DNA of 64,000 bases from Chthoniobacterales bacterium. Lineage in GTDB: Bacteria; Verrucomicrobiota; Verrucomicrobiia; Chthoniobacterales; UBA10450. Where the stretch lies: the NCBI GenBank assembly GCA_013821455.1, contig JACDGS010000005.1:1-64000 (forward strand). Reading direction: 5' to 3'. The notes beneath the pieces were generated by a model. The model was not told the origin of the DNA. It ran no database searches and worked only from the letters and a program-made list of their open reading frames with translations. The translations under genes were made by a program, and so were the position numbers. This document shows positions 21,555-44,428 of this stretch, piece by piece. Position 1 is the stretch's first letter; each line of letters starts with the position of its first letter.

Positions 21555-21570
21555 CGTTAGGCGGAAGTCG

Positions 21571-27947: not shown

Positions 27948-28162
27948 GGATTCCTTCCGTGCCTGGAAGTGTTTCAACCCTCGGGGCCAGCCGGAAGGGA
28001 AGGAGTTCCAGGCCCGCCCGCATCCGCACCAACTGCCGGTGCGAAAATGCGCGACCAGGCTACCGGCTGTCGAGATCAAATTTCACGGTGGAAAGACGTT
28101 TGGCGGTGGAAAGGCAAACCGGCGGCGGCGGTCGCCTAACGAGAAGGCCGGCAGTTATCGTC

Positions 28163-28200
28163 TGTAGGCGCGTCGATAACTTGTCCGTTTTTTCTTGTCC
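28163..28200 (+). repeat. Left terminal repeat of the element
   Basis: Begins TGT and contains CGCGTCG and two TTGTCC boxes (28181-28186 and 28195-28200). Repeated boxes of this kind are the usual form of binding sites for Mu/Tn7-type transposases at element ends. The ATPase gene stops 86 bp inside. Confidence 0.75.
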
Positions 28201-28285
28201 CGTGTCCAAGTGGCCGGGGCATAGCTCAGGCGTTCGCTCGTTCAGTCCCTCAAAACGCTTTCGCGGCGTTCGTGAAACTGATCGG

Positions 28286-29791
28286 CTAAGCGCCCGTCAA
28301 TTCGGACGCGCGAGCGCGCCGCAAGGCGGGATTCGTCGAAACAACCGACGAATTTCTGGACATCTGTTGGTTTCCTGAGGGGGCAAAATTACGGGTACCT
28401 GGCTGATCGATCGACGGGTCGACCGCCGGATCTGGCGCGTGTTCCTTAGCTATGTGAGGGAGCTTCGCGGAGTGATGGTGCTTTTTTGGAAGCGGGCTGA
28501 ATGCTTTGCGCATCGCGATGTCCGACTCGGTCTGAGCGGTTAGAGCTTCCGCGACATCGCGCAAGCCTACGATGTCGCGGCCGTTGCCATTCTGAGCTAG
28601 GAAGCGCGCTTCCTCGACTATCGATCTCACGGAGGGCAACGGGAGAAAGCTTGACCCGGCATAGCCGACAATCGCTTTCACGGCCGCTGTAGACACGGGA
28701 GCGCTCCGGGCTGAATTGATCCAGGATCGCGCGTCTTCTGACCATCTCATCGAAAGCAAATGAGTCGTGACGGCCTCCAGATCGGTGCGTGACGGACGTT
28801 CTTGCAGCTTCGTATAGCGAAACGTTCGGTGCATGAACTGAGCACTCGTCCAACCGGTTTGCTTTTCGACGCGCGCCTTCAGCGTCGCGAACTGATCGGT
28901 CGCGATTAGGGCGACTGGGACGCCGCTATTGACAAGGGCGGTATCGACCCAATCGACGAGCTCAGGGCTCGAATGATTCCGACGATGTTGCGGCCACAAA
29001 AAATGCGCCTCGTCAATGACGAGCATTAGCTTCGTCGAGGCGAGAACGCCTTCGATTTTGGCTTGCAGTTTGGAGCTAGCCTGTTGGCAAATTCCGATTC
29101 CAAGGGCCGCACCGATCTTCTGAAAAAAGCCGGTCCGATTCGTGATTCCTGTTAAATCAATGAAACGCGCTTCCCCTAGATGCTCCTCGCACCATGCTCG
29201 CGCTTCAAACGTTTTACCGCTTCCTGATTCGCCTTCGATCACGACCATTCGGCGGGTAGCTAACCCTTTATCGAGACAGCCATGTACAACCTTGCCTAAC
29301 GAAGTGATAACGCGATTCGCACGGAGATCCGTGACCTGAGCAAGACGGTAGGTTTCGAGAACCTCAAGAATACCTGCACGGGGAATCCCTCGTAACGAGT
29401 CCAAGTCCACCGCGGGATTGATACAAAGTCGAATCAGCGATTTCTGTACGAGTCCAACAAAGTCGAAGTCCGCGCTGCAAACGTCCGAGCCGGCGAGATA
29501 GGCCGAAAAGGACTCCTCCAACATGACTGTGTCAGGAAGGATATTAGAGGCGAACTGCCCACTAGACGGAAAGGCCGCGAGCAGCTTCCCCGCGAACTCG
29601 AACAGGCCGCCGGGCCTCATGGACATGGCTTGGAGCCAAAAGAGCAGGCGTCGATCGGCGGGAGACGAATAGCCGGCCGCTTTCTCTGCCACGACGTTGA
29701 ACGGGATCGGGCGTCGCTCCGTATATGTCCCACTGCTCATGTAGCGCTCGAAGGCAATCGGCTCGTCTTCCTGGCGGCGTCGTGTCGGCAT
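28286..29791 (-). CDS. MuB/TniB-like AAA+ ATPase
   Basis: A 501-residue protein. The N-terminal 165 residues are of unknown fold; then comes an AAA+ core with Walker A GESGSGKT and Walker B LMLVIDEAHFLWP, a sensor-type IATDQF, and a helical C-terminus. MuB, TnsC and TniB proteins bind target DNA with ATP and activate the transposase (family knowledge). It is the last gene of the leftward operon, 3 bp after the protease gene, and stops 86 bp from the element end. It is longer than MuB (312 residues), so extra functions are possible. Confidence 0.85.
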   Translation of the reverse strand: MPTRRRQEDEPIAFERYMSSGTYTERRPIPFNVVAEKAAGYSSPADRRLLFWLQAMSMRPGGLFEFAGKLLAAFPSSGQFASNILPDTVMLEESFSAYLAGSDVCSADFDFVGLVQKSLIRLCINPAVDLDSLRGIPRAGILEVLETYRLAQVTDLRANRVITSLGKVVHGCLDKGLATRRMVVIEGESGSGKTFEARAWCEEHLGEARFIDLTGITNRTGFFQKIGAALGIGICQQASSKLQAKIEGVLASTKLMLVIDEAHFLWPQHRRNHSSPELVDWVDTALVNSGVPVALIATDQFATLKARVEKQTGWTSAQFMHRTFRYTKLQERPSRTDLEAVTTHLLSMRWSEDARSWINSARSAPVSTAAVKAIVGYAGSSFLPLPSVRSIVEEARFLAQNGNGRDIVGLRDVAEALTAQTESDIAMRKAFSPLPKKHHHSAKLPHIAKEHAPDPAVDPSIDQPGTRNFAPSGNQQMSRNSSVVSTNPALRRARASELTGA

Positions 29792-29794
29792 TTC

Positions 29795-30844
29795 TTACAA
29801 GCTCTGGCGATAACTATCGTACAACTCCGGAGATTGCCGGGCCGCGATCCCAAAGGCGGCAGTGATGTCGATTTTGCGCTGCGTCGCGATGCTTTTTGCT
29901 AGCAGGAAAAACGGGGAGGCTTCCGCGCGAGCGTGGACCGCTAGAACTCGTTCGTTGTAGTGTCGAGAGTCACCTAGGCCCAACTTGTCTCGATAGCGCT
30001 CATAGAGCGCCGGTTGCGAGCGCGCTAGCTGATTCGCGGCCGCGTCAAGGGTCAAATCCAGCGCATCGGATAATGCTTTCGCCTGAGTTACAAATTCGTC
30101 GTGCTCTGCGAGCTGCCACCGGGCGAGATAGGTTGTCTCTTGCGGAGACTCAGGTTTCCGGCCGCCGAGTCCTAGCACTTCCCAGCGATAGCAATCGTAG
30201 AGATACGGCTCTGCGTGCGCGAGGACTTGGTAGGAATCCCAATCGCTAAGATTGCGCGACCTCGCCAACACCTTCGCCTTTGAAAGGAAATCAGGCGCAC
30301 TCGTTAGGGCGTTCGCTTCCGCCAGCTTCGACATGATAGGCGCGATCCGCTGGAAGGCCGCGCGATTGACCAAGCCGCCGCAGTTGACTGGCATTCCGCG
30401 GATCTCGCCTTTGCCATCGACATAGAAGGAAGGCGAGAACCGCCGAAAATCGCGGCCTAGGACGGCGCGCTTGCCAGCGCCGGTCCAGTCCAGATTCGCC
30501 CGGATACCGCCCTTCTGCGGATCGTCCCCACCCCAAAAAAATCCCTTCGGATGCGCGCTCGCTTCCTTGTCGTCATGATTGAAATCGAAGTAAGCGCGAT
30601 CACCTTCGCCGCTATCGGCCGCTGCGGTATAGCGCGCGTGCATCTCCGCGACTCGCTGCGCACCGGCCGGAGTCACGTTGACATCGAGTTCGACTGGCTT
30701 GCCCCCTCTGGAAGCGTGGATCGAATGGCTTCCAGGGGGAGCCCATTGAATATCGTTAGGCATCGCGCCAGCGTCCGCCATCCCTGGTAAGTCCAGCGCG
30801 ATCCGCGCTTCGATCGCGTTAGGGTCCTTCGTCAATTCGTTCAT
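29795..30844 (-). CDS. Mu gpI-like phage protease
   Basis: A 349-residue protein. Residues about 83-170 fit the Mu I protease family: YFDFNHDDKEASAHPKGFF, GGIRANLDWTGAGKRAV, DFRRFSPSFYVDGKGEI and a closing GGLVNRAAF block. In Mu the protease matures the prohead and its C-terminal portion acts as scaffold. The C-terminal half here (about 180-349) is helical and charged and could play the scaffold role. Its start overlaps the transposase stop by 4 nt. No major capsid gene is visible, which makes its target unclear. Confidence 0.8.
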   Translation of the reverse strand: MNELTKDPNAIEARIALDLPGMADAGAMPNDIQWAPPGSHSIHASRGGKPVELDVNVTPAGAQRVAEMHARYTAAADSGEGDRAYFDFNHDDKEASAHPKGFFWGGDDPQKGGIRANLDWTGAGKRAVLGRDFRRFSPSFYVDGKGEIRGMPVNCGGLVNRAAFQRIAPIMSKLAEANALTSAPDFLSKAKVLARSRNLSDWDSYQVLAHAEPYLYDCYRWEVLGLGGRKPESPQETTYLARWQLAEHDEFVTQAKALSDALDLTLDAAANQLARSQPALYERYRDKLGLGDSRHYNERVLAVHARAEASPFFLLAKSIATQRKIDITAAFGIAARQSPELYDSYRQSL

Positions 30845-33267
30845 AAGTCTTCCCTCTCTAGTGCCAGCGCTTCGTTGATCTCCGAAAGGCCCGCGTTGTA
30901 GTCGTCGAGATAGCCAAGTGATTCCTCGTCACGATGAACCAAGGCGGATGGGAGTTGGGCCGCGCGCGCACGCCGATTCAGTGAAGCATCGAGCTGGGTC
31001 TTTTCCTTCTGCCTGGCTGTGACCTCACGATTTTGGAGCGCCATTTTCTCGCCCGTCTCCCGGGTCCAGCGATCGACGATGACTGGTCGATAATGCTTTT
31101 GAGAAAGGGAATTTTTGAGCGTGCGGTAACGCTCCACCGCATAGCGATCGTGAGCTGCGGTCTTCGCATTCTCTTCGGCGAAATTCGAGGCGTCGATTCG
31201 ATCGTCTAACTCATTGTAGCGCGGGACGGTAAAGACATCCTTCTTGTCGAGCGTCGTGCAGCATAGGACATCCGGGCGTCGCGCGTTTACCCACGCTAAG
31301 ACGCTTTCACCAGCCCTGGCCCCCGTCTCGTCGCCGATGTAGCGCACTTTCCCGACGCCCGGAATGGTTAGCATGATGCCATTACGCTGACTGATCTTAA
31401 CCTTCTGCGGGTTGTTAGAGAGAAGCCAAAGTGACTTATCGTCGAAACGCGCGAGAGGCGTTGTCTGGAGTCGCTCCCACCCCTGACGTGGCGTTAGTCC
31501 CTTGAGCTTCCTTCCCTCTTGTGGCGTGTCGTTATACCGCTCGAAGATTTTGGTGTAAGCACTGACTAACTGATCTTCGCTGAGGAGATGTTGAGCGGGG
31601 TCGGCATGTCCGCTTTCGATGTCGCGCTTCAGCTTTTCAAAGCGCTCATTCCGAATCTGCCGTTCATTCCGGGAACTCCAGCCAGGGAGAGCAACCATCT
31701 CCGACTGCACCAGTCCGAAAACTCTTTCGATGCTCTTCCCGCGCGGTTGCTTCGCGTGAATAATGCGGCCGGCCACGCGCATCAGTCCCTGATCTCCTAG
31801 GCCAGTCCGGTCAGCGTCGCGGCGCCCTTTGATCCAACTGGAACGACGCCAGAGACCATTCTCAAGGACTAGTGCCCTACGAGGGATGCCAAAGTCCGAA
31901 AATGCGTCAGTAAAGACATTGTAAATTTGCGCTGAGTTATAGACGGGCTCAGAGATGAAAACGAAGGCCAGGATAAAAGTCGTTCTCTCATCGATCACCA
32001 TAAGAAGCTGACCGCGGATGAGTGAGAGCCGACCTTCGGAATCCCATCGGTAAGTATAAACAGGACTCGTTAGGTCATCCGCGCTAAAAAGGTCTCCGGC
32101 GGCAACATTATCCCAGTTAACTTGATGGTACGCCCCAAGCCGCTTGTGCTCACGCGGGCCGCGATGGATCGCTTCCAACCGCTTCGCCTCCGGTATGCAT
32201 AGCTTTCTGACTTCGTTAGGCACATAGGACTTTGCGCGCGGGTTAGAAAGGTAGTTACTCACAAAAGAGTCACTTAGTTCACCGCTGCCTCGCAAAGCAC
32301 GAATAGCCGGCGCGATCTCTCCCTCCCGGTTGATCACCGCTTCGCCGACAATCTTGTCAAAGTCGCCAGTTCTTACGAGGTCAGGCTTTCGAAACCAGCC
32401 TGAGTTAGTGGACCGCTTATCTTCTAAGACCGAGAAGGTTTGCCCATTTTCCAACCATGATCCGTACTTACGATTGATCTGCCTCCTAAGAGCCTCTTCG
32501 GTGCGAGCTACCTGCACGCCACAATCCCGGAGTAACTCTAAGAGTCTCCGCTTTGCGAAGATCTCTCTCGCTCCCACCGCCCCGACTAAGTAGGCGATGA
32601 ACTCACAGGCTCGCGCCCAGATTGAAGCTAGCTCTGCCAGGGTCGGCTCCGTCGGTTTCTTGACCGCAGCAGTAGCGTCTAAAAGCGTTCGCTCGGCGGC
32701 CGTGTCCGCGATCGCGATCGTCGCCCGCGCCCCAGCCCGGAGAGTAACTGTCTTATCGAAATAGAGCGCCAGATCTTCGAAACGGTCTTCGCCGGCATCG
32801 CGCTGAATCGTGCGATCGAGCATTCGATTCCACGTCTTCTTATCGCAGTCTCCCCAAGTAGCAGTGAAGCTCGCAAAGGCCGCTTGCTTGGTTTCTGCTG
32901 TCGTTAGGCTGTCGCGCTTCTCCAAGCTAAACACGAGCGCCTGGCGCAAACGATGCGCGCGCGCGACATGATGCGCAGAGATGTCTGCGATAGGGATTTT
33001 ATTTCCCTTCCGATCGATCGGCGCGAATCGCGCCGGCGGATCGCTCACCAGGTGTTCAGCGTTACGATAACCAATAGTGGGGGCGCGAGCGTCGAGTTGC
33101 TGAACGAAGTGGTAGGGAAGGCTCGTGAGTAACCAGCCATCGGCCTGCTGTCCGCGCACGAAGACGACTCCATTCGGGGTAGTATCGGCGAGCGCGAGCT
33201 GCACCGCGCGCTTCGACTTAGCCAACAAGCCGGCAAGACGTGAGGCCGTGGCCAGTGGCGTACTCAT
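30841..33267 (-). CDS. MuA-like DDE transposase
   Basis: An 808-residue protein. The N-terminal part looks like a DNA-binding module (SRLAGLLAKSKRAVQLALAD). The catalytic core, about 385-530, has the first Asp in VAAGDLFSADD, the middle position in ALVLENGLW, and the final Glu in PRGKSIERVFG, matching MuA GDGY, ITIDN and KPVERAFG. The middle residue reads Glu instead of Asp. A Mu-type C-terminal beta-barrel follows (LKGLTPRQGWERL ... VGKVRYIGDETGA), then a basic tail. It cuts and joins element ends to target DNA. The ATG overlaps the stop of the tape measure gene, an odd place for an early gene. Confidence 0.9.
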   Translation of the reverse strand: MSTPLATASRLAGLLAKSKRAVQLALADTTPNGVVFVRGQQADGWLLTSLPYHFVQQLDARAPTIGYRNAEHLVSDPPARFAPIDRKGNKIPIADISAHHVARAHRLRQALVFSLEKRDSLTTAETKQAAFASFTATWGDCDKKTWNRMLDRTIQRDAGEDRFEDLALYFDKTVTLRAGARATIAIADTAAERTLLDATAAVKKPTEPTLAELASIWARACEFIAYLVGAVGAREIFAKRRLLELLRDCGVQVARTEEALRRQINRKYGSWLENGQTFSVLEDKRSTNSGWFRKPDLVRTGDFDKIVGEAVINREGEIAPAIRALRGSGELSDSFVSNYLSNPRAKSYVPNEVRKLCIPEAKRLEAIHRGPREHKRLGAYHQVNWDNVAAGDLFSADDLTSPVYTYRWDSEGRLSLIRGQLLMVIDERTTFILAFVFISEPVYNSAQIYNVFTDAFSDFGIPRRALVLENGLWRRSSWIKGRRDADRTGLGDQGLMRVAGRIIHAKQPRGKSIERVFGLVQSEMVALPGWSSRNERQIRNERFEKLKRDIESGHADPAQHLLSEDQLVSAYTKIFERYNDTPQEGRKLKGLTPRQGWERLQTTPLARFDDKSLWLLSNNPQKVKISQRNGIMLTIPGVGKVRYIGDETGARAGESVLAWVNARRPDVLCCTTLDKKDVFTVPRYNELDDRIDASNFAEENAKTAAHDRYAVERYRTLKNSLSQKHYRPVIVDRWTRETGEKMALQNREVTARQKEKTQLDASLNRRARAAQLPSALVHRDEESLGYLDDYNAGLSEINEALALEREDL

Positions 33268-35792
33268 CCGCGAAGATTTCCTCCAGCTTCGTTAACCACA
33301 CGGACGATTTTCTTTACTGCGGCAGTTGATTCCAGGACGCGCCGCTGCATCTCGCGCTCGTCCATGAGAATGAAAATGTGCGTCTCGCCGCCGAGCTTGC
33401 CTGACGAACCACTTGAAGCGGATGATCCGCCGCCGGTATAACCTCCGAGCGCAAAACCGCCTCCCTGCCGACCGACCGTGTGAATATTCTCCAGGAAGGC
33501 AAGCCCGAGATTGCCAACCGCCGGGGCGCTGACCACGAACTCATTTCGGTGCACGAGCCCAGCGACTTCGCTTGAGCTGCCAAGGCCCGTGAAACCTCCA
33601 CTTTGAAAGCCTCCGGCGCTGGATGCGGCAACCGCAGCCCCAGTCCCTACAGCTAGGGCTGCGATGAACGCGGCCGTCCCGAAACCGGCAGCGGCTCCGT
33701 AGCTCGCGATCGAGGCCGCAGTAGCAGCGGGAGCCCATGCTGCCGCCGCAGACTCAGCCTGCTTGTTGGCGATGGACCCTGCCGCCTTACCGAAGATGGC
33801 ATTGAGAGCGAGAATCACCGCCTGCTGCGCGATCCACTGCAACACGATGTTGATGAGATTGCCGATGATCGCCTGCGCGGCCTGCGCAAACGCCTGCTGC
33901 CAGGTCTGAGTCTTGAAGATAAGTCCCGTGATGGCATTCGAGAGCCCGCTCACGGCCGACCCGATGGTGCTCGTGATCGCGGTGGCAATCTGATGGGACG
34001 TGCTGCCGAACTGGTTCGCGAACGAAGTTAGATCAGCTCTCAGAGCGCCCGTGAAACCACTCTTCGCGATCGAAAATTGCAGCTCCTGGAATGTCGTGCC
34101 TAACGAGGATAACCTGCCTTGCAACTGAGTGACTTCTGCCTGGCTAGGTGGACCAAAGGCACCATTCAGCGCATCGCTCGTGCGCTTGATTTCAGCGGTT
34201 ACCTCAGCCTGTTGCTGAAGATCGATTTGATGAAGCTGGGATTGCTTGGCGTCGGCGGAGATAAACGGGTTGTCGTTTACCGACTTCTCTTGCGCCTTCA
34301 ACTGCGTGAGAAGCTGGGATTCCTCCCGCTGTAGATCGGTAATTTGCTGATGCGTTTCCTTCTCTGCTTCTGCTTCCGCCCGATTGCCGGCGGCCGCGCT
34401 CTTCTTCGCAAACAATGCGAGCGTTTGATTACTCACCGACTCTTCAATCTTATGTCCGGCATCGATTTCCGCGTTCGTGATCGGCCCCAGCTTCGCCGCT
34501 TCCTCGATGAACTTCTCAAAGGCCGCCCGCCCCTTCTCCGCCGCGACCGTGGGGCCATCCCCAGAGAGTGTCGCCTGCAGGATGCGCGCTTCCTGATTTG
34601 CCTTGTAAATCAAGTCGGCCTGCTTCTGCGCTGCCTCGTTTAGTTTCTGGGCTCCCGGTTCGACCGTTTGCTGGTAGGTCGCGCCGAGTTGCTGCCCATT
34701 CTGGATCGCCTGCTTCGTCGCGACATTTTGCTGCTCCACTGCCGCCTTCGATTTATCGAACGCGTCGGCAACGGCATCATTGACGCCGTGGAACAAGAGG
34801 CCGCCGGGAGTGCTATTCGAAATCGCGAGCAGAACGCCCGCGAGAACGTGATACTTCTTGCCTACCTCCTCGATCGCTGTGCCCAGGCTAACGATCTTCC
34901 CTACGGCACCCAAGGCTTCAGCGCCCAGTTCCCCGATGGTGTGCGCCAGAATTTTAAACTGCTCGATCTTCGCCGGATCGATCGCTCCATCGATCCCGCT
35001 CTTGAGCGGCTCCATGATGGGCTTGGCCGCTTCGCCCTCGATATCAAGAATCGCGTTCTTAAGACGATTGCTGTCGGCATTGAAATTGTTCGACGAGTCC
35101 TGGATCGCCGCCGCGAATCCGCTGAACTTCGTCTGCAGGAAGGTAAGTAAATCACCTTCTTGAATGTGAGATTGCAGCAGCTTATCGAAACTCTCCTTCG
35201 TCTCATTGATGGCAGCGGCGAGCCGGCCGCCGCCTAACGTTCTCGCCGCGTTACCCTGCAGAATGTCGCCGATGTCGCGCGAAGCTTGACTGGCGGACAC
35301 GCCCACTGATTGCATGGCCTGCACCAGCAACTGCGTGGCCTGGATGACTTGCGAGATGTCGGTAATGCCAGCGCTGGCGAGCTGCGTTTGGGTGTGAGTG
35401 ACCGCCTCAAACATGTCCTCGTAGGCAATACCAACCTTATTGGCCGAGGCCTTGATGACCTCGATGTAGTCAACCGCGGCCTTCTTCGCTTCGGTAAAAT
35501 CAGCAAAGCGGCCGGGCTGCGTTTGCGTCAGGACAGCCGCGATCCCGGTGGCGACATCCTGCAATTTCGCTTGGAACTCGACGCCGGCCGAGATGGCTTC
35601 ATAGAGCTTTGCGGGGATTTCTGCGATCCCGTCCGCGATGCGATGCACGATGTCGATCGCGCCGGCAAATTGGAAAGCCTGACCCGCGCTCTCGGCCACG
35701 GAATGCAAATTCTGTATTTGCTGGACGGCGGTATCGATCGCGGAAATCTTCGCGTCGATGGAAATTAGAATGTCGTAGCTTTTATCTGCCAT
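33264..35792 (-). CDS. Phage tail tape measure protein
   Basis: An 842-residue protein. Long alpha-helical and coiled-coil regions are rich in Ala and Gln; an N-terminal TP901-type block (AIDIVHRIADGIAEIP ... GVEFQAKLQDVATGIAAV ... YEDMFEAVTHTQTQLASAGI) leads to hydrophobic segments about 610-740, then a Gly/Ser-rich tail with the family end-motif GLVHRNEFVVSAPAVGNLG. Tape measures set tail length and help DNA passage through the host membrane. By length it suits a tail of very roughly 120 nm at 1.5 angstrom per residue (inference). No tail tube or sheath gene is seen beside it. Confidence 0.9.
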   Translation of the reverse strand: MADKSYDILISIDAKISAIDTAVQQIQNLHSVAESAGQAFQFAGAIDIVHRIADGIAEIPAKLYEAISAGVEFQAKLQDVATGIAAVLTQTQPGRFADFTEAKKAAVDYIEVIKASANKVGIAYEDMFEAVTHTQTQLASAGITDISQVIQATQLLVQAMQSVGVSASQASRDIGDILQGNAARTLGGGRLAAAINETKESFDKLLQSHIQEGDLLTFLQTKFSGFAAAIQDSSNNFNADSNRLKNAILDIEGEAAKPIMEPLKSGIDGAIDPAKIEQFKILAHTIGELGAEALGAVGKIVSLGTAIEEVGKKYHVLAGVLLAISNSTPGGLLFHGVNDAVADAFDKSKAAVEQQNVATKQAIQNGQQLGATYQQTVEPGAQKLNEAAQKQADLIYKANQEARILQATLSGDGPTVAAEKGRAAFEKFIEEAAKLGPITNAEIDAGHKIEESVSNQTLALFAKKSAAAGNRAEAEAEKETHQQITDLQREESQLLTQLKAQEKSVNDNPFISADAKQSQLHQIDLQQQAEVTAEIKRTSDALNGAFGPPSQAEVTQLQGRLSSLGTTFQELQFSIAKSGFTGALRADLTSFANQFGSTSHQIATAITSTIGSAVSGLSNAITGLIFKTQTWQQAFAQAAQAIIGNLINIVLQWIAQQAVILALNAIFGKAAGSIANKQAESAAAAWAPAATAASIASYGAAAGFGTAAFIAALAVGTGAAVAASSAGGFQSGGFTGLGSSSEVAGLVHRNEFVVSAPAVGNLGLAFLENIHTVGRQGGGFALGGYTGGGSSASSGSSGKLGGETHIFILMDEREMQRRVLESTAAVKKIVRVVNEAGGNLRG

Positions 35793-35797
35793 ACTCG

Positions 35798-36382: not shown

Positions 36383-37010
36383 TTTCTCCGCCTCCAGCAT
36401 CGGTCGCGCGGAGCGAATGAATGTCATTCGCTACCGCCGCCGGTTTGCCGTGGTGGGGCTGCTTTGTCGTCCGAACATGGCGAATGCTTTTCAAATCAAA
36501 AAAAACATCGAGAGGGCAGAGGTCGGGGCCGCCAGCGGCATCGACGCGATTGGCCCAGCGCCGGAGTTGCCGTTCCGATATGAGGGGTTGACCGCGCCTA
36601 ACGAGAGCCTTCCGAGCAGCGCGGTTCGCACTCACCTCCGTCATCCCGCAATCCAAGGCACAAAAGTAGCGATTCATCGCCTCTCGCCTAACGAACGCAG
36701 AATGTGGTGGCGACAGGCGCTGCTCCGCGAAAGTGAGGAAACACGCGCGCCGACTGCGCTGTAATGAAAGCCTAACGAGATGCTCTACAGAGTGGCACTC
36801 TTCTTCGATGCGAAGAGCTAGCAACACTGCCTTGATCGGGAGTGGTAGCAGATTGGGATGAAAGACCGGCACATGGCCGTAACTCCTCGCCACCCGCGCC
36901 GTGGGCTCCGGGTGAAATCCCAAAAAGACCGTGCGGGTCCAGCCGATCGTCAGTGCTAGCTCGCCACAAGTAAACATGGCGGCCGATGAGCCCGTGGCGA
37001 TCGCCCTCAT
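36375..37010 (-). CDS. Hypothetical element protein
   Basis: A 211-residue basic protein not recognised as a known family. It contains a helical region with Arg/Ala pairs (ANRAARKALVRRGQPLISERQLRRW) that could be a helix-turn-helix. Start and stop both overlap neighbours by 4-8 nt, so it belongs to the leftward operon. Three copies of the 9-bp word lie within it. Confidence 0.55.
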   Translation of the reverse strand: MRAIATGSSAAMFTCGELALTIGWTRTVFLGFHPEPTARVARSYGHVPVFHPNLLPLPIKAVLLALRIEEECHSVEHLVRLSLQRSRRACFLTFAEQRLSPPHSAFVRREAMNRYFCALDCGMTEVSANRAARKALVRRGQPLISERQLRRWANRVDAAGGPDLCPLDVFFDLKSIRHVRTTKQPHHGKPAAVANDIHSLRATDAGGGEND

Positions 37011-37345
37011 GCGATTTGCGGCTCTGCGCGCCGTAGGAAATTGGTGATTTTGCGAATCAATGGCGCGGCCTTTTCATAGACCTGATTGAGGGACGCCCCG
37101 GCCTTAGGTAAGGCTTTATGATGGCCTAAGTAACGATCGCCTCCGGCGACGTGGATCATTTCGCGCAAACGCTCATACTCATCCATGACTTCGCTGGTAG
37201 CGCGCACTACGTCGGGGGTTGGATTCCTACTCGGCCCGTTGTTGCGCGCGTCCGTGAAATCAAGCACCACGGCCTCGTGCAAACGGTCAATCAGGCGATC
37301 CGTTTCCTGGCTTAAGACTTCGTATAATTTTGCGGAGACCTTCAT
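37007..37345 (-). CDS. Hypothetical element protein
   Basis: A 112-residue, mainly helical protein (LYEVLSQETDRLIDRLHEAV ... MDEYERLREMIHVAGGDRY) with no recognised family. The start overlaps the previous gene's stop; a copy of the 9-bp word spans the junction (codons for LPNE, then stop, then the new ATG). Position before gpG-like and tape measure genes suggests a head-tail or assembly role, which is inference. Confidence 0.6.
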   Translation of the reverse strand: MKVSAKLYEVLSQETDRLIDRLHEAVVLDFTDARNNGPSRNPTPDVVRATSEVMDEYERLREMIHVAGGDRYLGHHKALPKAGASLNQVYEKAAPLIRKITNFLRRAEPQIA

Positions 37346-37644
37346 TCGTTAGGCAACACAATTCCCGCTTCGTTAGGCACGCCGGCCGCGATCTGATCAA
37401 CGGCGAAGCTGAATCGACCCCATATCACCGTCGCCGCCGAGAGATGCGCTTTCGCGGTGAACAGCTCCTTCGCGAAGTGACTCACGCGCAGTCCGGCAGT
37501 CCACTCACCCCCCGCTTCTTTTTCCAGACAATCGACGGCCTCTTGTAAATCCAGGCGGATTTCCGCGAGACCTTCCGCTAAGGCGAAGGCAACCAACCCA
37601 GCACGCGATCGGCGCCATTCGGGCAGAATGGAGAAAGTTTTCAT
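37342..37644 (-). CDS. Hypothetical element protein
   Basis: A 100-residue protein starting MKTFSILPEWRRSRAGLVAF, with an amphipathic helical middle (LAEGLAEIRLDLQEAVDCLEKEAGG). Not recognised. Translationally coupled to the following gene. The C-terminus reads VPNEAGIVLPNE; both PNE triplets come from copies of the 9-bp word. Confidence 0.6.
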   Translation of the reverse strand: MKTFSILPEWRRSRAGLVAFALAEGLAEIRLDLQEAVDCLEKEAGGEWTAGLRVSHFAKELFTAKAHLSAATVIWGRFSFAVDQIAAGVPNEAGIVLPNE

Positions 37645-37658
37645 TCGTCGTCAGGACA

Positions 37659-38393
37659 TCAACGACTGCTACTCAGCAAAACCTCGTCGAGGTCCTGCGC
37701 GATCCTGGCATTGTTAGGATGGGGCAATTTCGGAGGCCCCTGCCGAAGAGGCACGATCGGTTGCGCGAGAATCTCCTCAGCGATAGCAACCACGACTGCC
37801 GTGGAATCCTTCTGTGCATCGGCGCCCCTAATTTGTCGCACGCGCTTTTCGTAAACCGCGTAGGCCCTGGTATGAGAGAAAATTCTGTCTGAAGTCCCCT
37901 CGGTGAGAACGGGAAGATGGTGGCCCTCCCATTCAATCATCGAACCGAGCTCAGCTAAAAATTCCGCTTCCCCAAAAATGAGACTGCGATAACTCAGGTC
38001 GGGAAGAATCCTTTTGATCTCCAGGAAGTCATCGGTCCTTTGCGATTCAAGCTGCGACCTTTCTTCTGTCGCTTTGCTCTCATCCCCCCGGGCCGCTTCC
38101 TCCGCGATTTTTTCCTCATCCGCCAGCGCCGCCGCCGCTTCAGGACTGAGCTTGCGACGGTGCAACCCAACCGCGCTGAGGCTCTCTATTTCGACGCGAC
38201 TCTGCGCGTGTTTCTCACGATCAGATTGCGCGGCTTGCAACGTTTGCTGATTCGCCGCCAGGGCTGTTTCGTTCTTGCGATAGCGCGAAACGGCGACTTG
38301 CAGCGAGGCGACCATAGCCATGATCATCGCGCGCAACTTCGCAACTTTCGGTTCCTGATTTTCTGTTTCTGTCTTCATAGATTCGTTAGGCAT
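37659..38393 (-). CDS. Coiled-coil hypothetical element protein
   Basis: A 244-residue protein from MPNESMKTETENQ (a second ATG five codons in is also possible). Residues about 15-110 form a charged coiled coil (KNETALAANQQTLQAAQSDR, EEKIAEEAARGDESK), followed by a folded-looking C-terminal half. The first PNES comes from the 9-bp word, with a second near-copy just upstream of the ATG. Could be a scaffold or chaperone; not recognised. Confidence 0.6.
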   Translation of the reverse strand: MPNESMKTETENQEPKVAKLRAMIMAMVASLQVAVSRYRKNETALAANQQTLQAAQSDREKHAQSRVEIESLSAVGLHRRKLSPEAAAALADEEKIAEEAARGDESKATEERSQLESQRTDDFLEIKRILPDLSYRSLIFGEAEFLAELGSMIEWEGHHLPVLTEGTSDRIFSHTRAYAVYEKRVRQIRGADAQKDSTAVVVAIAEEILAQPIVPLRQGPPKLPHPNNARIAQDLDEVLLSSSR

Positions 38394-38431
38394 TGTTAGG
38401 CGTTCGATAAGTTTGAATGATTCTTTATTCG

Positions 38432-38776
38432 TTAGGCTTTGAGCGCGCCTTCGATGGCGCGCTGGGTGACGCTCTCGGCTTGCTTGACGAAGCCGGGATT
38501 CAGCAGCTCCAACCGCTGCAAGCGGCGGCGATACCAAGGCTCGAAGGCCTCTCGATTGATCTCCTCGCCTTTTCCAATTAGCGCGTTGTGACTCGCTGCC
38601 GTGAGTTGGCTCGACCAGCTTTCATCCTTGCCGGCGAAAAGCGCGGCGAGACTCACCTCGTCATCGAAGGCCGCGAGATACGCTGGCATTTCCCGGATCG
38701 AAAGCGGTTTTAGCGAGATGATTTCAGTCGGCCCGTCGAGCAAAGAGAGTTCAATTTGTGCTGCGTTATCGTTCAT
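38432..38776 (-). CDS. Small tail-assembly-like hypothetical protein
   Basis: A 114-residue protein starting MNDNAAQIELSLLDGPTEII, with a pattern like phage tail assembly chaperones (short beta N-terminus, helices LAALFAGKDESW and WYRRRLQRLELLNPGF). Such genes normally precede the tape measure; here it is 2.6 kb upstream of it. Stop TAA is in a copy of the 9-bp word. Family assignment is weak. Confidence 0.55.
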   Translation of the reverse strand: MNDNAAQIELSLLDGPTEIISLKPLSIREMPAYLAAFDDEVSLAALFAGKDESWSSQLTAASHNALIGKGEEINREAFEPWYRRRLQRLELLNPGFVKQAESVTQRAIEGALKA

Positions 38777-38808
38777 TTTCGTATTCGTTAGGCTGATTTT
38801 CGCCGTCG

Positions 38809-39039
38809 TTAGGCGGGTGCTGGGGTCGGATGTTTCCCGCGCGCATGATGCCGGAAAAAACGAGGGTGAGACCGGATCGCAGACAGGCATACGGCCAGCG
38901 CGTCGGCGCGCGCTTTACTGCCAGAAGGCGCATCGAAAAATGTTTCACGCGTCTCCTTCGGCACGAGGAGCCAGCAAGCCCTGCAAGTCGCGGCCCAAGC
39001 CGACTTCGGCCCCCCGCATAAACAAGTTTCAAGAGACAT
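38809..39039 (-). CDS. Zinc-ribbon-like small element protein
   Basis: A 76-residue protein with a cysteine array at its start (CLCGGPKSAWAATCRACW), typical of a compact zinc finger, followed by a basic helix (SGSKARADALAVCLSAIRSH). A competing frame over the same DNA lacks such a pattern. It overlaps the upstream HTH gene by 11 nt. Possibly a nucleic-acid-binding regulator of the element. Confidence 0.5.
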   Translation of the reverse strand: MSLETCLCGGPKSAWAATCRACWLLVPKETRETFFDAPSGSKARADALAVCLSAIRSHPRFFRHHARGKHPTPAPA

Positions 39040-39394
39040 TCCGCCCCCTTGTTTTCGTTAGGATGCAACCGCGCAGTGAGCCGCGCATCTGCTCGTGAAA
39101 TTCTTCGAGGGTGATCTCCTCCTCCTGCTCGCCGCAGGTGATGGGAGTGGCTTTAATCACCTGCTCAATCTTTTCGAGATGGCAGGGATGGTCACGGCGA
39201 CCGGAAAGGATATGGCTCGCCGCCGTGTAGTTAACGCCAGCGTCCCTTGCTACAGAGAGCAGAGTCAGCCCGCGCCGAGCCATAGCAACCCGAAGATGGG
39301 TAAGGGGCCGAAGCTCAGCAGATGCCACGGGGGCAAAACTCTTAGTCGTCGTCAAAGTGTTGACGGAGTATCTGGGAACTAAGTTCCCGTGCAA
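39029..39394 (-). CDS. XRE-like HTH regulator (leftward)
   Basis: Up to 121 residues; the central part (LRVAMARRGLTLLSVARDAGVNYTAASHILSGRRDHPCHLEKIEQVI) is a Cro/CI-type helix-turn-helix. The longest frame starts with TTG at 39394, but it would then run across two palindromes (39350-39388); a GTG at 39328 or ATG at 39283 would leave the palindromes upstream as operators and seems more natural. First gene of the leftward operon, divergent from the second regulator. Confidence 0.7.
   Translation of the reverse strand: MHGNLVPRYSVNTLTTTKSFAPVASAELRPLTHLRVAMARRGLTLLSVARDAGVNYTAASHILSGRRDHPCHLEKIEQVIKATPITCGEQEEEITLEEFHEQMRGSLRGCILTKTRGRNVS
39350..39388. promoter_or_regulatory. Two palindromic operators between divergent regulators
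   Basis: CGTCAA-AGTG-TTGACG (39350-39365) and GGGAAC-TAA-GTTCCC (39374-39388) are perfect inverted repeats, 8 bp apart, in the divergent control region of the element. They are good candidates for binding by the two HTH proteins, as in a lysogeny switch. Confidence 0.6.
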
Positions 39395-39438
39395 GTCAAA
39401 TTTTCTTACCCACGTCCGCTTTGTAAAGTAAAGCCAAC

Positions 39439-40248
39439 TTGAGCGCCCAAAACTCTTTTGCGGACCGACTGAAGAAGGTTATGGAGGGAAAAGGGATTAG
39501 CAGGCGGGAGTTAGCCAGACGAGTTGGTGTTACACCGGCTGCAGTGCGGAAATGGTTGAAGCACACCCGCCCGCGTGATCATGTCATTATCGTCCTTGGC
39601 TTAGAGCTAGAAACGTCCATTCCGTGGCTTGCTGAGGGGGTGGGGCAGCCATCCGACAGGGATAATCTTCCGCCTTCTTTGGTTGCTGCTCACTTCATTG
39701 CGGATCGAGAAGAGATTCGGCGTGAGCAGCGAGAGTTGCGCCGACGATATGAAGAATTGATCGCGCGCACAGAACGCCTCGCCAAGCGAACACGCCCCCA
39801 GATGATTTTTGTAAATAAGGATCAGTCGCTCATAAGAAAGCGTTTGATACTTTCAGATAAAGCAGTAATAAACTCCCTCATGCCACTCCCGGCAAACATA
39901 GGCGACCTGCTTGATCGATTGCGGCGTGCAACTGCGATTCGCGGAGAGAAGAAGGCCCTTGCCGACCATCTCGGTGTCTCGCAGCAGCAGCTAAGCGACT
40001 GGCTAACGACGACTGAGAAACGGAAAACTTCAATTCCGAAGCCGGGTGGCGAAATAACGCTTCGGATGCTTGCCTGGGTCCAGGCAAAAGAGGCGCACCA
40101 AAACGAAAGCCCTGCCACGGCGGTAACCGCGACAGGGCGAGTGACCCAACCTCAAGAATCGTATGCACAACCACAAAAAGTCAGGTCAAAATCACGGTCG
40201 AACGACCGCACGAAACGGTCAACTAAAACCAAGCAGAGCAGTCGTTAG
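39439..40248 (+). CDS. Two-HTH phage-type repressor
   Basis: A 269-residue protein starting with TTG. Residues about 5-65 (FADRLKKVMEGKGISRRELARRVGVTPAAVRKWLKH) form an XRE HTH. A second HTH lies at about 157-200 (LLDRLRRATAIRGEKKALADHLGVSQQQLSDWL), with a basic tail. Between them is a charged helix (EEIRREQRELRRRYEELIARTERL) that could dimerise. Two DNA-binding domains could bridge the paired operators upstream. Lower GC than the chromosome around it. Stop TAG is in a copy of the 9-bp word. Confidence 0.8.
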   Translation: MSAQNSFADRLKKVMEGKGISRRELARRVGVTPAAVRKWLKHTRPRDHVIIVLGLELETSIPWLAEGVGQPSDRDNLPPSLVAAHFIADREEIRREQRELRRRYEELIARTERLAKRTRPQMIFVNKDQSLIRKRLILSDKAVINSLMPLPANIGDLLDRLRRATAIRGEKKALADHLGVSQQQLSDWLTTTEKRKTSIPKPGGEITLRMLAWVQAKEAHQNESPATAVTATGRVTQPQESYAQPQKVRSKSRSNDRTKRSTKTKQSSR

Positions 40249-40255
40249 GCGAGAA

Positions 40256-41062
40256 ATGAAAAAGTTATCGCCGACCGCAAGATTGCTGCCCGACCTCGCC
40301 GTCGAGATCGAGGAAAAAGAAAGCCGTAAAAAGGTAAGAGTGTCGATGCCGCTCGCCCTCGCGGACGCGATCGACGCGAAAGCAAAAGAAATGGGGATCG
40401 ATCCCGACGAATGGTGCGAGCTCGCGGTGCGCACCTACTTTCGCGATCGCTCGCCTAACGACAAGGGCCATCGGCGGTCTAAACCGCCCGTGCCCTTCTC
40501 CTTCGTTGCGCCTGGCCTCCTTTCAAGCCTGGCTTTCGATTCATCCCGGCTCCTCGCGTTTCTCGCCAAGGAAATCCACGAGAGCGACCGCCGTATCGAG
40601 CAAGCGATGATGCGGGAGACTGCTAAAAAAACGGAGGATGAAAAACTTTTCTCCTTCATCGTCTGGCGCGAGGTGGCCTTGCTTGCGCATGAATTTCACA
40701 CTCAGAACCCGGAATTCCGCGTCGGCGTGGGCGGAATGTTCAACTCGCCGTTCGGTGGGATTACGGCGGAGCATCTCTTTTGCGAAGAGGATTTGCTCGA
40801 TTTGTTCTGCGAATTCCTCTTTGAGAATCGCGATGCGCTGGCGACGATGATCCGAGAGGAAAATGCGGCTGGCCGCTATTCGTTAGGCTTGGCGGAAGCG
40901 CTTGTTATCGCGGAAGAAGTGATGCGGCGCGATGGCTACGCGCCGGGCTCTGACTCCGTCGCGGGCAGCCCGGCGAAATTGGTGCGCCTCATGTGGGCGA
41001 CGCGAATTGCTTCGATCGAGGAGCGTTACATGCCGAAAGCCGTCACAGGCGGTGCGAAATGA
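40256..41062 (+). CDS. Hypothetical element protein with ribbon-helix-helix-like segment
   Basis: A 268-residue protein from MKKLSPTARLLPDL, 7 bp after the repressor stop. Residues about 20-60 (RKKVRVSMPLALADAIDAKAKEMGIDPDEWCELAVRTYF) look like a ribbon-helix-helix DNA-binding segment. The rest is helical and acidic, with no recognised family. Coupled to the next gene by ATGA overlap. Confidence 0.6.
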   Translation: MKKLSPTARLLPDLAVEIEEKESRKKVRVSMPLALADAIDAKAKEMGIDPDEWCELAVRTYFRDRSPNDKGHRRSKPPVPFSFVAPGLLSSLAFDSSRLLAFLAKEIHESDRRIEQAMMRETAKKTEDEKLFSFIVWREVALLAHEFHTQNPEFRVGVGGMFNSPFGGITAEHLFCEEDLLDLFCEFLFENRDALATMIREENAAGRYSLGLAEALVIAEEVMRRDGYAPGSDSVAGSPAKLVRLMWATRIASIEERYMPKAVTGGAK

Positions 41063-41304
41063 AGCTCCTAACGCCTAACGAGACGACAGCGCGCGATGCG
41101 CGCGAACAACTTGAAAACGCCATCATGACTTCGGCTGCGCTTCTCGAAGCGCTCGCCGAATTGATGATGAAGGGCTTGACGGGAGATTGCCTAACATTGA
41201 GCGCAGAGACTATTCGTGGCCTGCATTTATTAGCAGAAGAACAGGGGCAACATTTGCGAGGCCGGTTCAATGAACTGGTTGCCGCAACGCGAGCTAAGGC
41301 ATGA
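41059..41304 (+). CDS. Small helical hypothetical protein
   Basis: An 81-residue protein starting MKLLTPNETTARDAREQLEN, all-helical by composition, starting in the ATGA overlap with the preceding gene. Two near-tandem copies of the 9-bp word encode the LLTPNE region. Not recognised. Confidence 0.55.
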   Translation: MKLLTPNETTARDAREQLENAIMTSAALLEALAELMMKGLTGDCLTLSAETIRGLHLLAEEQGQHLRGRFNELVAATRAKA

Positions 41305-41383
41305 ATGGGGCGTTCGACAGTGTCCCACCAATCAAGACCGCAAACAAAACGTCCGACCCGTTTCGTTTGCCTAACGAATCTGC

Positions 41384-41728
41384 ATGAAAAAAATCGCCAA
41401 ACTAGCTGACGGCCGCAAGCTCTATCGCATCGAATGGCAGGTGCGCCCGAGCGAGGATCATCCGCTCTTTGGTAAGTCTGCGGCCGGCGCGCTTTCCATC
41501 TGGGTTTTCGAGCGCTCGCCCGGCGCGGCCGGCGTGCGCGCCATGAGCTTGTTGGAAGTCATGCCCTTCCTCACCACGAGCAAGGTTGCGGAATCTGTCA
41601 CGAACATCGTTCCGCCCCACGAAGCTTATCGAATTCTAGTGGACATGGTGGAGCTGACCGGATTCTCCGCTTACTACGATTCCCGAGAGGAGACGGCCCG
41701 GCGAGAGGTGTCGCCAGTGGTCGCCTAA
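41384..41728 (+). CDS. Hypothetical element protein
   Basis: A 114-residue protein starting MKKIAKLADGRKLYRIEWQV, of mixed alpha/beta pattern, unrecognised. Its stop TAA and the next gene's ATG are tied together by one copy of the 9-bp word (GCC TAA CGA ATG). It directly precedes the gpF-like gene, the usual place of the portal gene in Mu-like phages, but it is far too short to be a portal. Confidence 0.55.
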   Translation: MKKIAKLADGRKLYRIEWQVRPSEDHPLFGKSAAGALSIWVFERSPGAAGVRAMSLLEVMPFLTTSKVAESVTNIVPPHEAYRILVDMVELTGFSAYYDSREETARREVSPVVA

Positions 41729-41731
41729 CGA

Positions 41732-42574
41732 ATGGAATTAGTCGCCGGCATCACATTTGACGAGGCTCTGCAAAAGCTCGGCGAGAGATCTCCAGTTGGG
41801 TCAATTCTTAACAGCGCAGAATGGTCGCGCGTACCGGTCGCGCTACGCGAACGCGCCTTTTTTTCTGCCTCCGTTGAATCAACACGCTGGCTGCAATCGC
41901 GACTCGATTTCCTGAATGATAATCTCGCGAATACCACCGCCCTGAACGACAACGGCGAGCGTTATTTCGTCGCGGGCGGACGGGCGCAATTTATAAAAGA
42001 TGCGCAGCTTGACGCAGTTCGCTCCGGTCTCGGTCCTCTCGACCCTAACGATGCCGGAAGCTTGAAAGACATACGCTCCGGGACCCGGTTAGCCTTGATT
42101 TTCGACACCAGTATCGAGAGCGCGTATGGGTTTGGCCACTGGAAGCAAGGCCAAGACCCGGACGCGCTTGACGCGTACCCCGCCCAGAGGCTGATCCGCG
42201 TGCGCGCAGTACGCAAACCTCGCCCATATCACCAAGCGGCGCTGAAGGACGGGCCGCGACTCAAGAGTGATATAGCGTATTGGGTAAGCCTCAACCCAGA
42301 CTTCGGTGTACCTTGGCCGCCGTACGGTTGGAATTCCGGGTGCGACGTAGAGGGTGTCCGCCGCGCGGAGAGCGATCGGCTTGGCCTAACGAAGCCTAAC
42401 GAGGTGATCAAGCCGGTAGAAAAAGATTTTAACGATAATCTTAAGGCGAGTACGCAAGGGCTCAGCTCGCGCCTGCTTGATTTTCTGCGCGCGGCCTTTG
42501 GCCAGCAGGCGACATTTGAGGGCGACAGCGTGCGGTGGAATTCAGAAGACGACGACACGCCTTCGGAAGAATAA
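41732..42574 (+). CDS. Mu gpF-like head morphogenesis protein
   Basis: A 280-residue protein. The C-terminal half has the phage minor head protein block: GTRLALIFDTSIESAYGFGH, a YPAQRLIRVRAV strand, RPYHQAALKDGPRL, and the terminal PPYGWNSGCDVEGV (usually PPNGWNCRC; the first Cys is Ser here). The family takes part in head assembly around the portal. Near-tandem copies of the 9-bp word encode GLTKPNEV. Moderately degenerate motif, so function may be altered. Confidence 0.75.
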   Translation: MELVAGITFDEALQKLGERSPVGSILNSAEWSRVPVALRERAFFSASVESTRWLQSRLDFLNDNLANTTALNDNGERYFVAGGRAQFIKDAQLDAVRSGLGPLDPNDAGSLKDIRSGTRLALIFDTSIESAYGFGHWKQGQDPDALDAYPAQRLIRVRAVRKPRPYHQAALKDGPRLKSDIAYWVSLNPDFGVPWPPYGWNSGCDVEGVRRAESDRLGLTKPNEVIKPVEKDFNDNLKASTQGLSSRLLDFLRAAFGQQATFEGDSVRWNSEDDDTPSEE

Positions 42575-42596
42575 CGAAGAGGCGAAAATCGACGAG

Positions 42597-43148
42597 ATGG
42601 AAACCGAACTTCTACAGAGCTATCGCGCGATGCTGCTTCAACAATTCGACGTTGTTGGAATGTATCGACATGCGATCCGCAATGATCCAGACGTAACCCT
42701 CTTTGAGCAGATGATCGTCGAGGAGACTTTGCTGCGCGACACGCTCGACAATGCGGTGGAACACTTCATCGCGCGTCGCGCCTGGCCGAAATTGAGGGAC
42801 GAAGAAAAGTTCTACATCGGTCAGCGTTTCTTCATCGGGATGATGGCGATCGACGAACTGCTTGGTCAACCGACGCCGCCCCTAACCAACGAACAGGAAT
42901 CAGCGATACAAGCCTGCGCGCATGAGTTCGGTGATGTGCCTGTGATCGTGCATGAGCCATCGCCCCACGGGGCGCCGGTCACATTCAATCCGCCGGCGCC
43001 GAGCCCGTGCGACGGGGCCGCCTTCATCCGGTGGATGCTTATCTCGCTCTGGAAACCGCTTGGCCCGCTCTGGATAAAAATTTCTAGCGATTCCTGGCAG
43101 AGGCAACACCCGTTGACGCCGGTACGTTCAGGACAAGAAACGCGATGA
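42597..43148 (+). CDS. Hypothetical element protein
   Basis: A 183-residue protein starting METELLQSYRAMLLQQFDVV. Helical N-terminal 110 residues (LFEQMIVEETLLRDTLDNAV, KFYIGQRFFIGMMAIDELLG) with a Pro-rich C-terminal third. Not recognised. It starts 22 bp after the gpF-like gene and is co-oriented. Confidence 0.55.
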   Translation: METELLQSYRAMLLQQFDVVGMYRHAIRNDPDVTLFEQMIVEETLLRDTLDNAVEHFIARRAWPKLRDEEKFYIGQRFFIGMMAIDELLGQPTPPLTNEQESAIQACAHEFGDVPVIVHEPSPHGAPVTFNPPAPSPCDGAAFIRWMLISLWKPLGPLWIKISSDSWQRQHPLTPVRSGQETR

Positions 43149-43416
43149 AAACGCTTATGAAATCGTGTCTTCTTTTAGGGTTGGTGGACTGGCTGTTTTA
43201 GTTGGAATCCTGGTTCTCGGCTTAATGGCGATCTAATCTTCTTAGGGAAGACTCCGGTGAAGAGAGGCATAATTCCAATGGAAGAAAGTTTGGACGAGCT
43301 CTTAGACAGAGAAATTACTGACTCAGATCTCCCCGAGTCTTTCAAACAGCTTTGACGCGGCCCCCTAGGGAAGTTCGGATTTGTCAGCTAACGAAAACTA
43401 GCCTAACGATTACAGA
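43149..43416 (+). other. Gap with only short open frames
   Basis: Two weak candidates. A GTG at 43165 opens a 23-residue hydrophobic peptide (GGLAVLVGILVLGLMAI, stop 43234-43236), out of frame with an ATG at 43145, as if a small membrane protein were frameshifted. A GTG at 43257 opens a 32-residue acidic peptide (MEESLDELLDREITDSDLP from its internal ATG; stop 43353-43355). Neither can be confirmed from sequence alone. Confidence 0.3.
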
Positions 43417-43794
43417 GTGCTCGTCTTCAACACCCTCACCAAAGTCGACACCGACTTTAAAGCTGCAGGATGGGCTACGATCGCGACTCCCTCTTTAGGT
43501 CAGTGGGCTCGAGAAGTTCTGATGTCCGGACTAATGGCGCATACCGGAACAATTCTCATCGAGCCTAATTACGTTTGTAAAGATCACCGAAATCTGTTCA
43601 GCAATTTTTACTCAAAAAAGTTCATCGTCCGATCAGCCGATTGCGCGCGTCTTCATTTTTTTTCCCGCGGGAATCTTAACGTTGATGATTTCCAAAATGA
43701 ACCTGAGGGGTTCCAAAATGAGTATATAGGCTATAGCGTACTGCGCCCGGTCGCCGGGAGGAGTTTGGGCCGCACTGTGATCGATCTTCGCTGA
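43417..43794 (+). pseudogene. Fragment of an unrecognised larger protein
   Basis: The 125-residue frame starts with GTG mid-domain (the open frame reaches back only five codons to a stop and reads PNDYRVLVFN). It holds a conserved-looking block, CARLHFFSRG ... YIGYSVLRPVAGRSLGRTVI, then stops. The next frame carries another 40 open codons (ADAAESLNRQKKEIEDGDF ... HQVVGREQF, stop 43907-43909) without a start. The parts suggest a decayed cargo gene next to the element's right end. Function unknown. Confidence 0.4.
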
Positions 43795-44143
43795 CGCCGC
43801 AGAGTCACTTAATCGCCAAAAGAAAGAGATAGAGGACGGAGATTTTGCTCGACTAAATGAGACTTGGGCGCTTTTGGCCCATCAAGTCGTTGGTCGCGAG
43901 CAGTTCTAAGGCTTGCGGTAAGTTTTGTCGGCTGGGATTTTGTCGCAGGCAAAGTCTTGGACATTTGTTCCGATCAGGTGGGAAGCGAGGCCGGTGCGGA
44001 GCGCTGTAATTTCGGAGCGAAAAGCAGTTGGGAAAAACTCGCTTCTTCGCCTAACGGGTCGGTGAAATCGCAGAAGTCTAGTCGACAACGGAGACTCGCA
44101 AAGGGTCCGCCGGTAGAAAAAGTCCTTCGCACTTCGCACCTTT

Positions 44144-44410
44144 TGTGACGCGCTGATAACTTGTCCAATTTTAGACGACAGTTTGTCCAAGCTTGGGAGC
44201 TTTTCCCTCGTAGGCAGCGCTAAAAACTTCGCACCTTTTCTTGCCCAGGCTCGGACAAATGATTCGGACAACTTCTCCCAAGCTGGACAACTTGTCGTTT
44301 CTCGACGCCCCTGTTAAGCATGCGTAAGTAACATGCTTAACCACTCTTAACGCCTCTTCGCGGCTATTAACGCACTCCGCAGTTTAGGACAACTTCACGA
44401 CGCGTTGACA
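44144..44410 (-). repeat. Right-end array of the element
   Basis: The outer end is GGACAACTTCACGACGCGTTGACA (44387-44410, ending ACA). GGACAA boxes facing it lie at 44253, 44266, 44285 and 44387. Two TTGTCC boxes (44161, 44183) face the other way, the first inside a 23-bp near-copy of the LEFT end (TGTGACGCGCTGATAACTTG, from 44144). A 14-bp direct repeat, ACTTCGCACCTTTT, occurs at 44131 and 44226. This is longer and more complex than the left end, as in Tn7 and Mu. Confidence 0.7.
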
Positions 44411-44428
44411 CGTCACTGCGCGTGCCGT

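Follow-up and report, generated by a model that had tools for sequence, protein, structure and literature searches.

A Mu-type transposon beside a tRNA-Leu gene and its probable tRNA-homing family in Verrucomicrobiota

What places a Mu-type element next to the 3' end of a tRNA gene, and why does it carry a few phage virion genes? The question is raised by a complete element of 16,248 bp at positions 28163-44410 of the window, by which we mean the whole 64,000-nucleotide stretch analysed here (positions 1 to 64,000 of contig JACDGS010000005.1 from a Chthoniobacterales bacterium, genome G000). With a probability of about 0.72, we consider it a complete transposon of a TniQ-less, tRNA-homing family of MuA/MuB type, in which phage virion genes are retained as cargo of a satellite or interfering kind. 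This family in Verrucomicrobiota is so far undescribed, and no paper describing Mu-type elements that home to tRNA genes without TniQ was found in a search made largely outside subscription papers.

The right end of the element is 17 bp beyond the discriminator base of a tRNA-Leu(CAG) gene (44427-44508, minus strand), the 3' end of which points toward the element, and 38 bp from the T-loop box GGTTCGA (44443-44449, minus strand), the presumed recognised sequence. Such a placement is seen at nine independent loci, in the same orientation and 37-40 bp from GGTTCRA, with eight different targets comprising seven tRNA genes and one tmRNA gene. Besides the window element, these are the elements of G014 at tRNA-Arg(CCT), G016 at tRNA-Leu(GAG), G152 at tRNA-Leu(CAG), G266 at the tmRNA gene, G605 at tRNA-Gly(CCC), G614 at tRNA-Arg(ACG), G644 at tRNA-Val(GAC) and G693 at tRNA-Val(CAC). 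If 50 tRNA genes in 4 Mb are assumed, the chance of such a placement is roughly 2.5e-5 per element. In G152 the same chromosomal tRNA-Leu site as in the window is held by a different element, whose transposase is 30% identical, indicating separate insertions. The spacing is constant over class I tRNAs, class II tRNAs and tmRNA, and since tmRNA and tRNAs share only the T-arm and acceptor stem, that region should be the recognised part. Insertion at a fixed distance and in a fixed orientation beside a conserved gene, as found here, is a Tn7-like trait. An earlier note, made from the letters of the window alone, had rightly described a complete Mu-type element; it overlooked this fixed position, and also that the element belongs to a transposon lineage with partial virion cargo and is not merely a shrunken Mu prophage.

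Comparison of the ends identified terminal inverted repeats, TGTAGGCGCGTCGATAACTTGTCC (TGTA...TTGTCC; 28163-28186, plus strand) on the MuB side distal to the tRNA gene and TGTCAACGCGTCGTGAAGTTGTCC (TGTC...TTGTCC; 44387-44410, minus strand) on the proximal side, and the left repeat is identical to the reverse complement of the right end at 18 of 24 positions. Both are flanked by the target repeat CGTC (28159-28162 and 44411-44414). The repeat is 4 bp long in six of the eight delimited elements of the family (the window genome and five of the seven others) and 5 bp in G605 and G127. When every TG...CA pair in the neighbourhood of the transposase and MuB genes was scored, these ends came first, with 20.0 as compared to 18.0 for the runner-up. 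TTGTCC is present in 10 copies in the element, eight of them in the terminal 48 bp at the left (two copies, the second at 28195-28200, plus strand) and 261 bp at the right (six copies), where 0.12 are expected in total (P about 1e-12). Five boxes at the right, at 44161(+), 44183(+), 44253(-), 44266(-) and 44285(-), span 44161-44290 and probably form a transposase-binding array. The element with ends at 28163 and 44410 and its TTGTCC boxes, both proposed in the earlier note, are thus borne out. The left end is single copy in its own genome, and ends of the same type are present in the delimited elements of G014, G153, G605, L037, G266, G578 and G127.

In the same-genus genome G003 and the same-family genome G005, the response-regulator gene (23622-26066 in the window) adjoins the tRNA-Leu gene with a gap of about 10-25 bp. 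Therefore 26070-44427 is absent there, including both the element and a kelch/galactose-oxidase-like gene (26112-28079) which lies between the response regulator and the element. The boundaries given here are predicted from the ends and the target repeat, from homologous elements and from the conserved distance of 38 bp to the tRNA box, and not from an empty allele. In another genome of the same genus, G004, the tRNA-Leu site (L027, 2099-11303) is occupied by 9.2 kb of unrelated DNA with, by eye, amidase-like, ABC transporter-like, tetratricopeptide repeat and other genes, making the site a hotspot.

The transposition module consists of two minus-strand genes. The transposase (808 aa; 30841-33267) belongs to the MuA/TnsB superfamily, with a weak match to phrog_8463 (transposase), and its structure model, of low confidence, best matches MuA (4fcy, 6e-9) and TnsB. 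Its presumed catalytic acidic residues D397/D398, E469 and E514 are conserved (14 relatives). The middle one (469) is Glu, in the form ENG or ERG, replacing the usual Asp in 14 of 14 transposases (the window and 13 relatives). The second gene encodes a MuB/TnsC-like AAA+ ATPase (501 aa; 28286-29791) which matches phrog_296 (DNA transposition protein, 1e-11). Its profile matches the solved MuB structure 8xvb (E 0.0027), while its structure model matches ShCAST TnsC (7plh) and MuB (8xvc).

Both genes are part of an overlapping minus-strand operon comprising tail-chaperone-like, small, tail-completion-like, tape-measure-like, transposase, protease and ATPase genes. A repressor pair lies at the divergent junction, and the plus strand carries a minor head gene of Mu gpF type and ORFs with no assigned family. 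Five genes of the element are virion-like. The Mu I-type head maturation protease (349 aa; 29795-30844, minus strand; PF10123 3e-6, phrog_328) is 39% identical over 147 aa (E 4e-26) to the protease of a prophage in G620. The tape-measure-like protein (842 aa; 33264-35792, minus strand) overlaps the transposase start, matches tape measure phrog families up to 4e-10, and is 35% identical over 873 aa to that of the G014 element. The tail-completion or virion-morphogenesis-like protein (209 aa; 35798-36427, minus strand) matches no named family and was assigned by its gpG position and its similarity to a G620 frame between the minor head and protease genes (38%, E 4e-30) and to a frame in G377 (33%). 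The tail assembly chaperone-like protein (38432-38890, minus strand) is similar to proteins of G620 (25%, 6e-9) and G706 (33%, 6e-12), and its G620 counterpart matches phrog_1442 (tail assembly chaperone). The minor head protein of Mu gpF type (280 aa; 41732-42574, plus strand; phrog_220 1e-5) is 47% identical to that of the L037 element and 38% to that of the G620 prophage. The reduced Mu-like gene content noted earlier was thus recovered, namely a transposase of MuA fold, a MuB-like ATPase, a Mu I-type protease, a minor head protein and a tape measure protein. The ORFs of the element did not yield a gene for terminase, portal, major capsid or tail tip, which is why we do not regard it as a phage.

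Complete prophages point to the source of these genes. The Mu-like siphophage-type prophage of G620 (G620:C37) contains orthologues of all five in phage order, and that of G377 (G377:C1) contains orthologues of the minor head and tail-completion-like genes. Unlike the element, both have full virion gene sets, and their transposases are only distantly related to that of the element. The lineage to which the complete Mu-like siphophages of Verrucomicrobiota belong is therefore the probable source of the five virion genes. The partial set is kept under selection: identity between G000 and G014 at the three codon positions is 0.52/0.62/0.33 for the tape measure gene and 0.44/0.52/0.32 for the transposase gene, so that the former is the more conserved, with a saturated third position, and hence under purifying selection; virion genes also recur in sister elements.

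Relatives of the transposase were detected by profile search in Chthoniobacterales and throughout Verrucomicrobiota. Delimited elements range from 3.0 to 16.2 kb, with ends of TGT/TGA...TTGTC type and 4- or 5-bp repeats, and none of about twenty divergent relatives has a complete virion set. Many members have a few stray virion genes, although they could not build a phage particle by themselves. Lone tape-measure-like genes are present in G014, G752, G328 and G127 and, by architecture only, in G266, G574, G455, G644 and G693; other lone virion genes are Mu portal (G328, G578), protease (G644, G328) and minor head genes (L037). The slot between transposase and ATPase is variable, being occupied by a protease gene in G000, a minor head gene in L037 and a tape-measure-like gene in G644. 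The small members G152 and G016 have no virion gene. Relatives of the transposase, ATPase, tape measure and minor head proteins were not found in 50,697 phage records or in IMG/VR scans. In G127 (L055/L056, about 21154-28403 of the joined region) an inovirus-like block, with a Zot-like ATPase gene recognised by eye, adjoins the MuB end of the element.

The recurrence of lone tape-measure, portal, protease and minor-head genes is what would be expected of anti-phage cargo, in which lone virion proteins poison the assembly of related phages. By analogy with Tab, a prophage-encoded tail-assembly blocker that targets the tape measure protein (PMC10884400), such interference seems plausible, and the tRNA-side cargo of the G014 element (joined L008+L009, about 23032-26793), beside its tape measure operon, resembles by eye an ABC-3C-type or other defence system. 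However, Tab blocks the tape measure protein and is no copy of it, and a PADLOC search of the window element gave no defence family; we hold this explanation tentatively. Somewhat less likely, and on the whole doubtful, is a phage satellite proper, which a helper Mu-like phage would induce and package and whose own tape measure, chaperone and protease would adapt the helper particle. The partial virion set under constraint and the Mu-type portals found elsewhere in the host genomes of the sister elements G328 and G266 would fit a satellite, whereas the window genome has no such portal outside the element, the phage records and IMG/VR scans gave no relative of its transposase or tape measure protein, and the small members do without any virion gene.

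The orthology and partly shared gene order with the G620 and G377 prophages, which also carry MuA/MuB-like genes, might alternatively mean that the element is a decaying prophage, that is, an ordinary transposable phage with most virion genes deleted and a fortuitous tRNA neighbour. We consider this improbable: the element is intact in its ends, operon and ORFs, the tape measure gene is better conserved than the transposase gene between G000 and G014, about twenty divergent relatives (the delimited ones 3-16 kb) lack a complete virion set, the transposase-ATPase slot holds differing virion genes in G000, L037 and G644, and the tRNA spacing recurs at nine loci.

No cas family was found among the window ORFs, and guide-RNA targeting was rejected, as the longest match of the tRNA region inside the elements was no better than in shuffled sequences. 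A Tn7-like transposon with an overlooked TniQ or TnsD is very improbable despite the Tn7-like fixed distance and orientation and the tRNA att sites known for Tn7-like elements (PMC11406308, PMC10293859), given that in nine genomes no TniQ (PF06527) match rose above the cut-off, that the elements gave no match, and that in G152, the smallest of the tRNA-adjacent elements, the stretch from the tRNA-side end to the end of the ATPase gene contains only the ATPase, the transposase and an HTH gene.

The ATPase is the candidate for target selection. An N-terminal peptide, MS[SN]TRxA...ERYxSSPEF, is present in all eight tRNA-adjacent elements with a known ATPase; in the window element it is MPTRRRQEDEPIAFERYMSS, a degenerate form of this family motif (MSxTRxA..ERYxSSPEF). 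The peptide is absent from the ATPases of G127, L037, G578, G752 and G328, none of which lies beside a tRNA gene, so that it tracks tRNA adjacency (8/9 versus 0/5, Fisher P 0.003). The idea that tRNA targeting belongs to one transposase clade was rejected, as the trait is scattered over the transposase tree. In G605, for example, the transposase groups with those of the non-tRNA elements G328, G752 and G578, yet its ATPase is of the peptide type and the element sits beside a tRNA gene. That the peptide follows adjacency although the transposase tree scatters the trait is a correlation which points to the MuB/TnsC-like ATPase as the target selector.

We infer the transposition of the element, the selector role of its ATPase and the use of its virion genes from sequence comparisons, and the following mechanism is proposed. 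The ATPase would be positioned at the T-loop/acceptor end of the target gene through its N-terminal peptide, either alone or with a host tRNA-gene factor, and distance and direction would be fixed by its polymer on DNA. The transposase would bind to the TTGTCC boxes and then join the ends at the target. Transposition is probably replicative as in Mu, because no TnsA-like nuclease was found. The virion genes would act in trans on related phage, by satellite piracy of particles or by interference with assembly, as no capsid, portal, terminase or tail-tip gene was found in the element.

A stronger proposal, which we put forward with considerable reserve, is that of a new class of site-specific transposon. 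In it the ATPase itself would read the box-B-like T-loop of tRNA and tmRNA genes by means of the short peptide, without TniQ, guide RNA or other selector, and captured single virion genes would be used to live off or suppress Mu-like phages. If true, a minimal transposase-ATPase pair homing to tRNA genes would show how targeting can arise before or without TniQ, would offer a compact, testable means of integration by proteins alone at a universal safe site, and would have its parallel in the yeast Ty elements, which target tRNA genes. The lone virion genes that recur in such elements would show transposon-phage interaction in a new light.

Several points weigh against the transposon reading. 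The correlation between peptide and adjacency comes from 14 elements, and the 3-kb derivative G153, in which the transposase is truncated and the peptide altered (MSSTW), is not beside a tRNA gene. The transposase model has a pTM of 0.30 and is poor at the active site, and no TnsA-like nuclease was matched among the element ORFs in Pfam scans, which a divergent nuclease could escape. No transposition event has been observed. The relatives examined offer no exact empty site, only an enclosing empty locus; the comparison suggested in the earlier note hence shows the absence of the element in G003 and G005 and not its exact boundaries, the neighbouring kelch gene being missing too. For G016, G152, G614, G644 and G693 the position of the distal end is uncertain, a search in G016 and G152 having yielded none, and for G644 and G693 the proximal end was deduced from the spacing. 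Lastly, no Mu-type portal (PF06074) occurs elsewhere in the window genome, and so no helper phage was found.

Among known systems, the element resembles phage Mu and Mu-like prophages in its MuA-fold transposase (low-confidence model), MuB-like ATPase, TGT/ACA-type ends, Mu I-type protease and gpF-type minor head protein. In contrast to Mu, it is 16 kb long, its ORFs gave no terminase, portal, major capsid or tail-tip gene, its target repeat is 4 bp rather than 5 bp, and it sits at a fixed tRNA site whereas Mu targets are near-random. With phage satellites (PICI, cf-PICI, P4-like) it shares integration, a repressor, a partial set of virion-related genes and a tRNA-adjacent site; satellites, however, move by a tyrosine integrase and not by a Mu-type transposase, and no helper was found for the element. 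The IS21 family (IstA/IstB) likewise combines a transposase with an AAA+ ATPase and has short target repeats. IS21 elements are only a few kb long and are not known to carry virion genes. No target selector has been reported for IS21 (PMC10293859). Tn7-like transposons and tRNA-homing CRISPR-associated transposons (CASTs; types I-B2, I-D and V-K) share the TnsB/TnsC-like pair and the one-sided insertion at a fixed distance and orientation; TnsD/TniQ or guide RNAs lead them to tRNA att sites (PMC11406308; PMC10293859). The element, in contrast, is without TniQ/TnsD, cas genes or a guide match, no TnsA was found, and the ends in its family lie 16-19 bp past the tRNA end as compared to about 30-33 nt for CyCAST (PMC10293859).

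A further feature concerns the spread of the element. The 9-mer GCCTAACGA occurs 4,605 times in the 4.3-Mb genome G000, where its reversed control occurs 62 times and variants differing by one base are very few; it has 91 sites in the window (1-64000). It is also enriched in G001-G005 and G014, and weakly in G152. The word looks like a DNA uptake sequence; those in the papers found in one literature search are from Neisseriaceae and Pasteurellaceae, and the present host is outside both groups. The element contains 25 copies, which is the host density, as compared to 0.75 expected, suggesting that it has probably been resident in this lineage for long and could move between cells by transformation. 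At the G014 locus (L008, L009) a second abundant word, AGATCGACA, is present in 30 copies in 18.9 kb of flank versus 6 in the 15.1-kb element.

The remaining genes of the element are regulators and ORFs of no clear function. The repressor pair consists of an HTH regulator (121 aa; 39029-39394, minus strand; PF13560 and, weakly, phrog_4583 transcriptional repressor) and a CI-type HTH repressor (269 aa; 39439-40248, plus strand; PF07022, phrog_4) with a divergent promoter region. No family was matched by the minus-strand ORFs at 36375-37010 (211 aa), 37007-37345 (112 aa) and 37342-37644 (100 aa), nor by the plus-strand ORFs at 40993-41304 (103 aa), 41384-41728 (114 aa), 42477-43148 (223 aa) and 43417-43794 (125 aa). 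A coiled-coil-like protein of at most 292 aa (37659-38537, minus strand) probably has an internal true start; the coiled-coil proteins of the elements look similar, but a single family was rejected as no homology is detectable. The ORF of 299 aa at 40163-41062 (plus strand) contains a ribbon-helix-helix stretch resembling a BrnA antitoxin (NF047399, E 0.0015, below cut-off).

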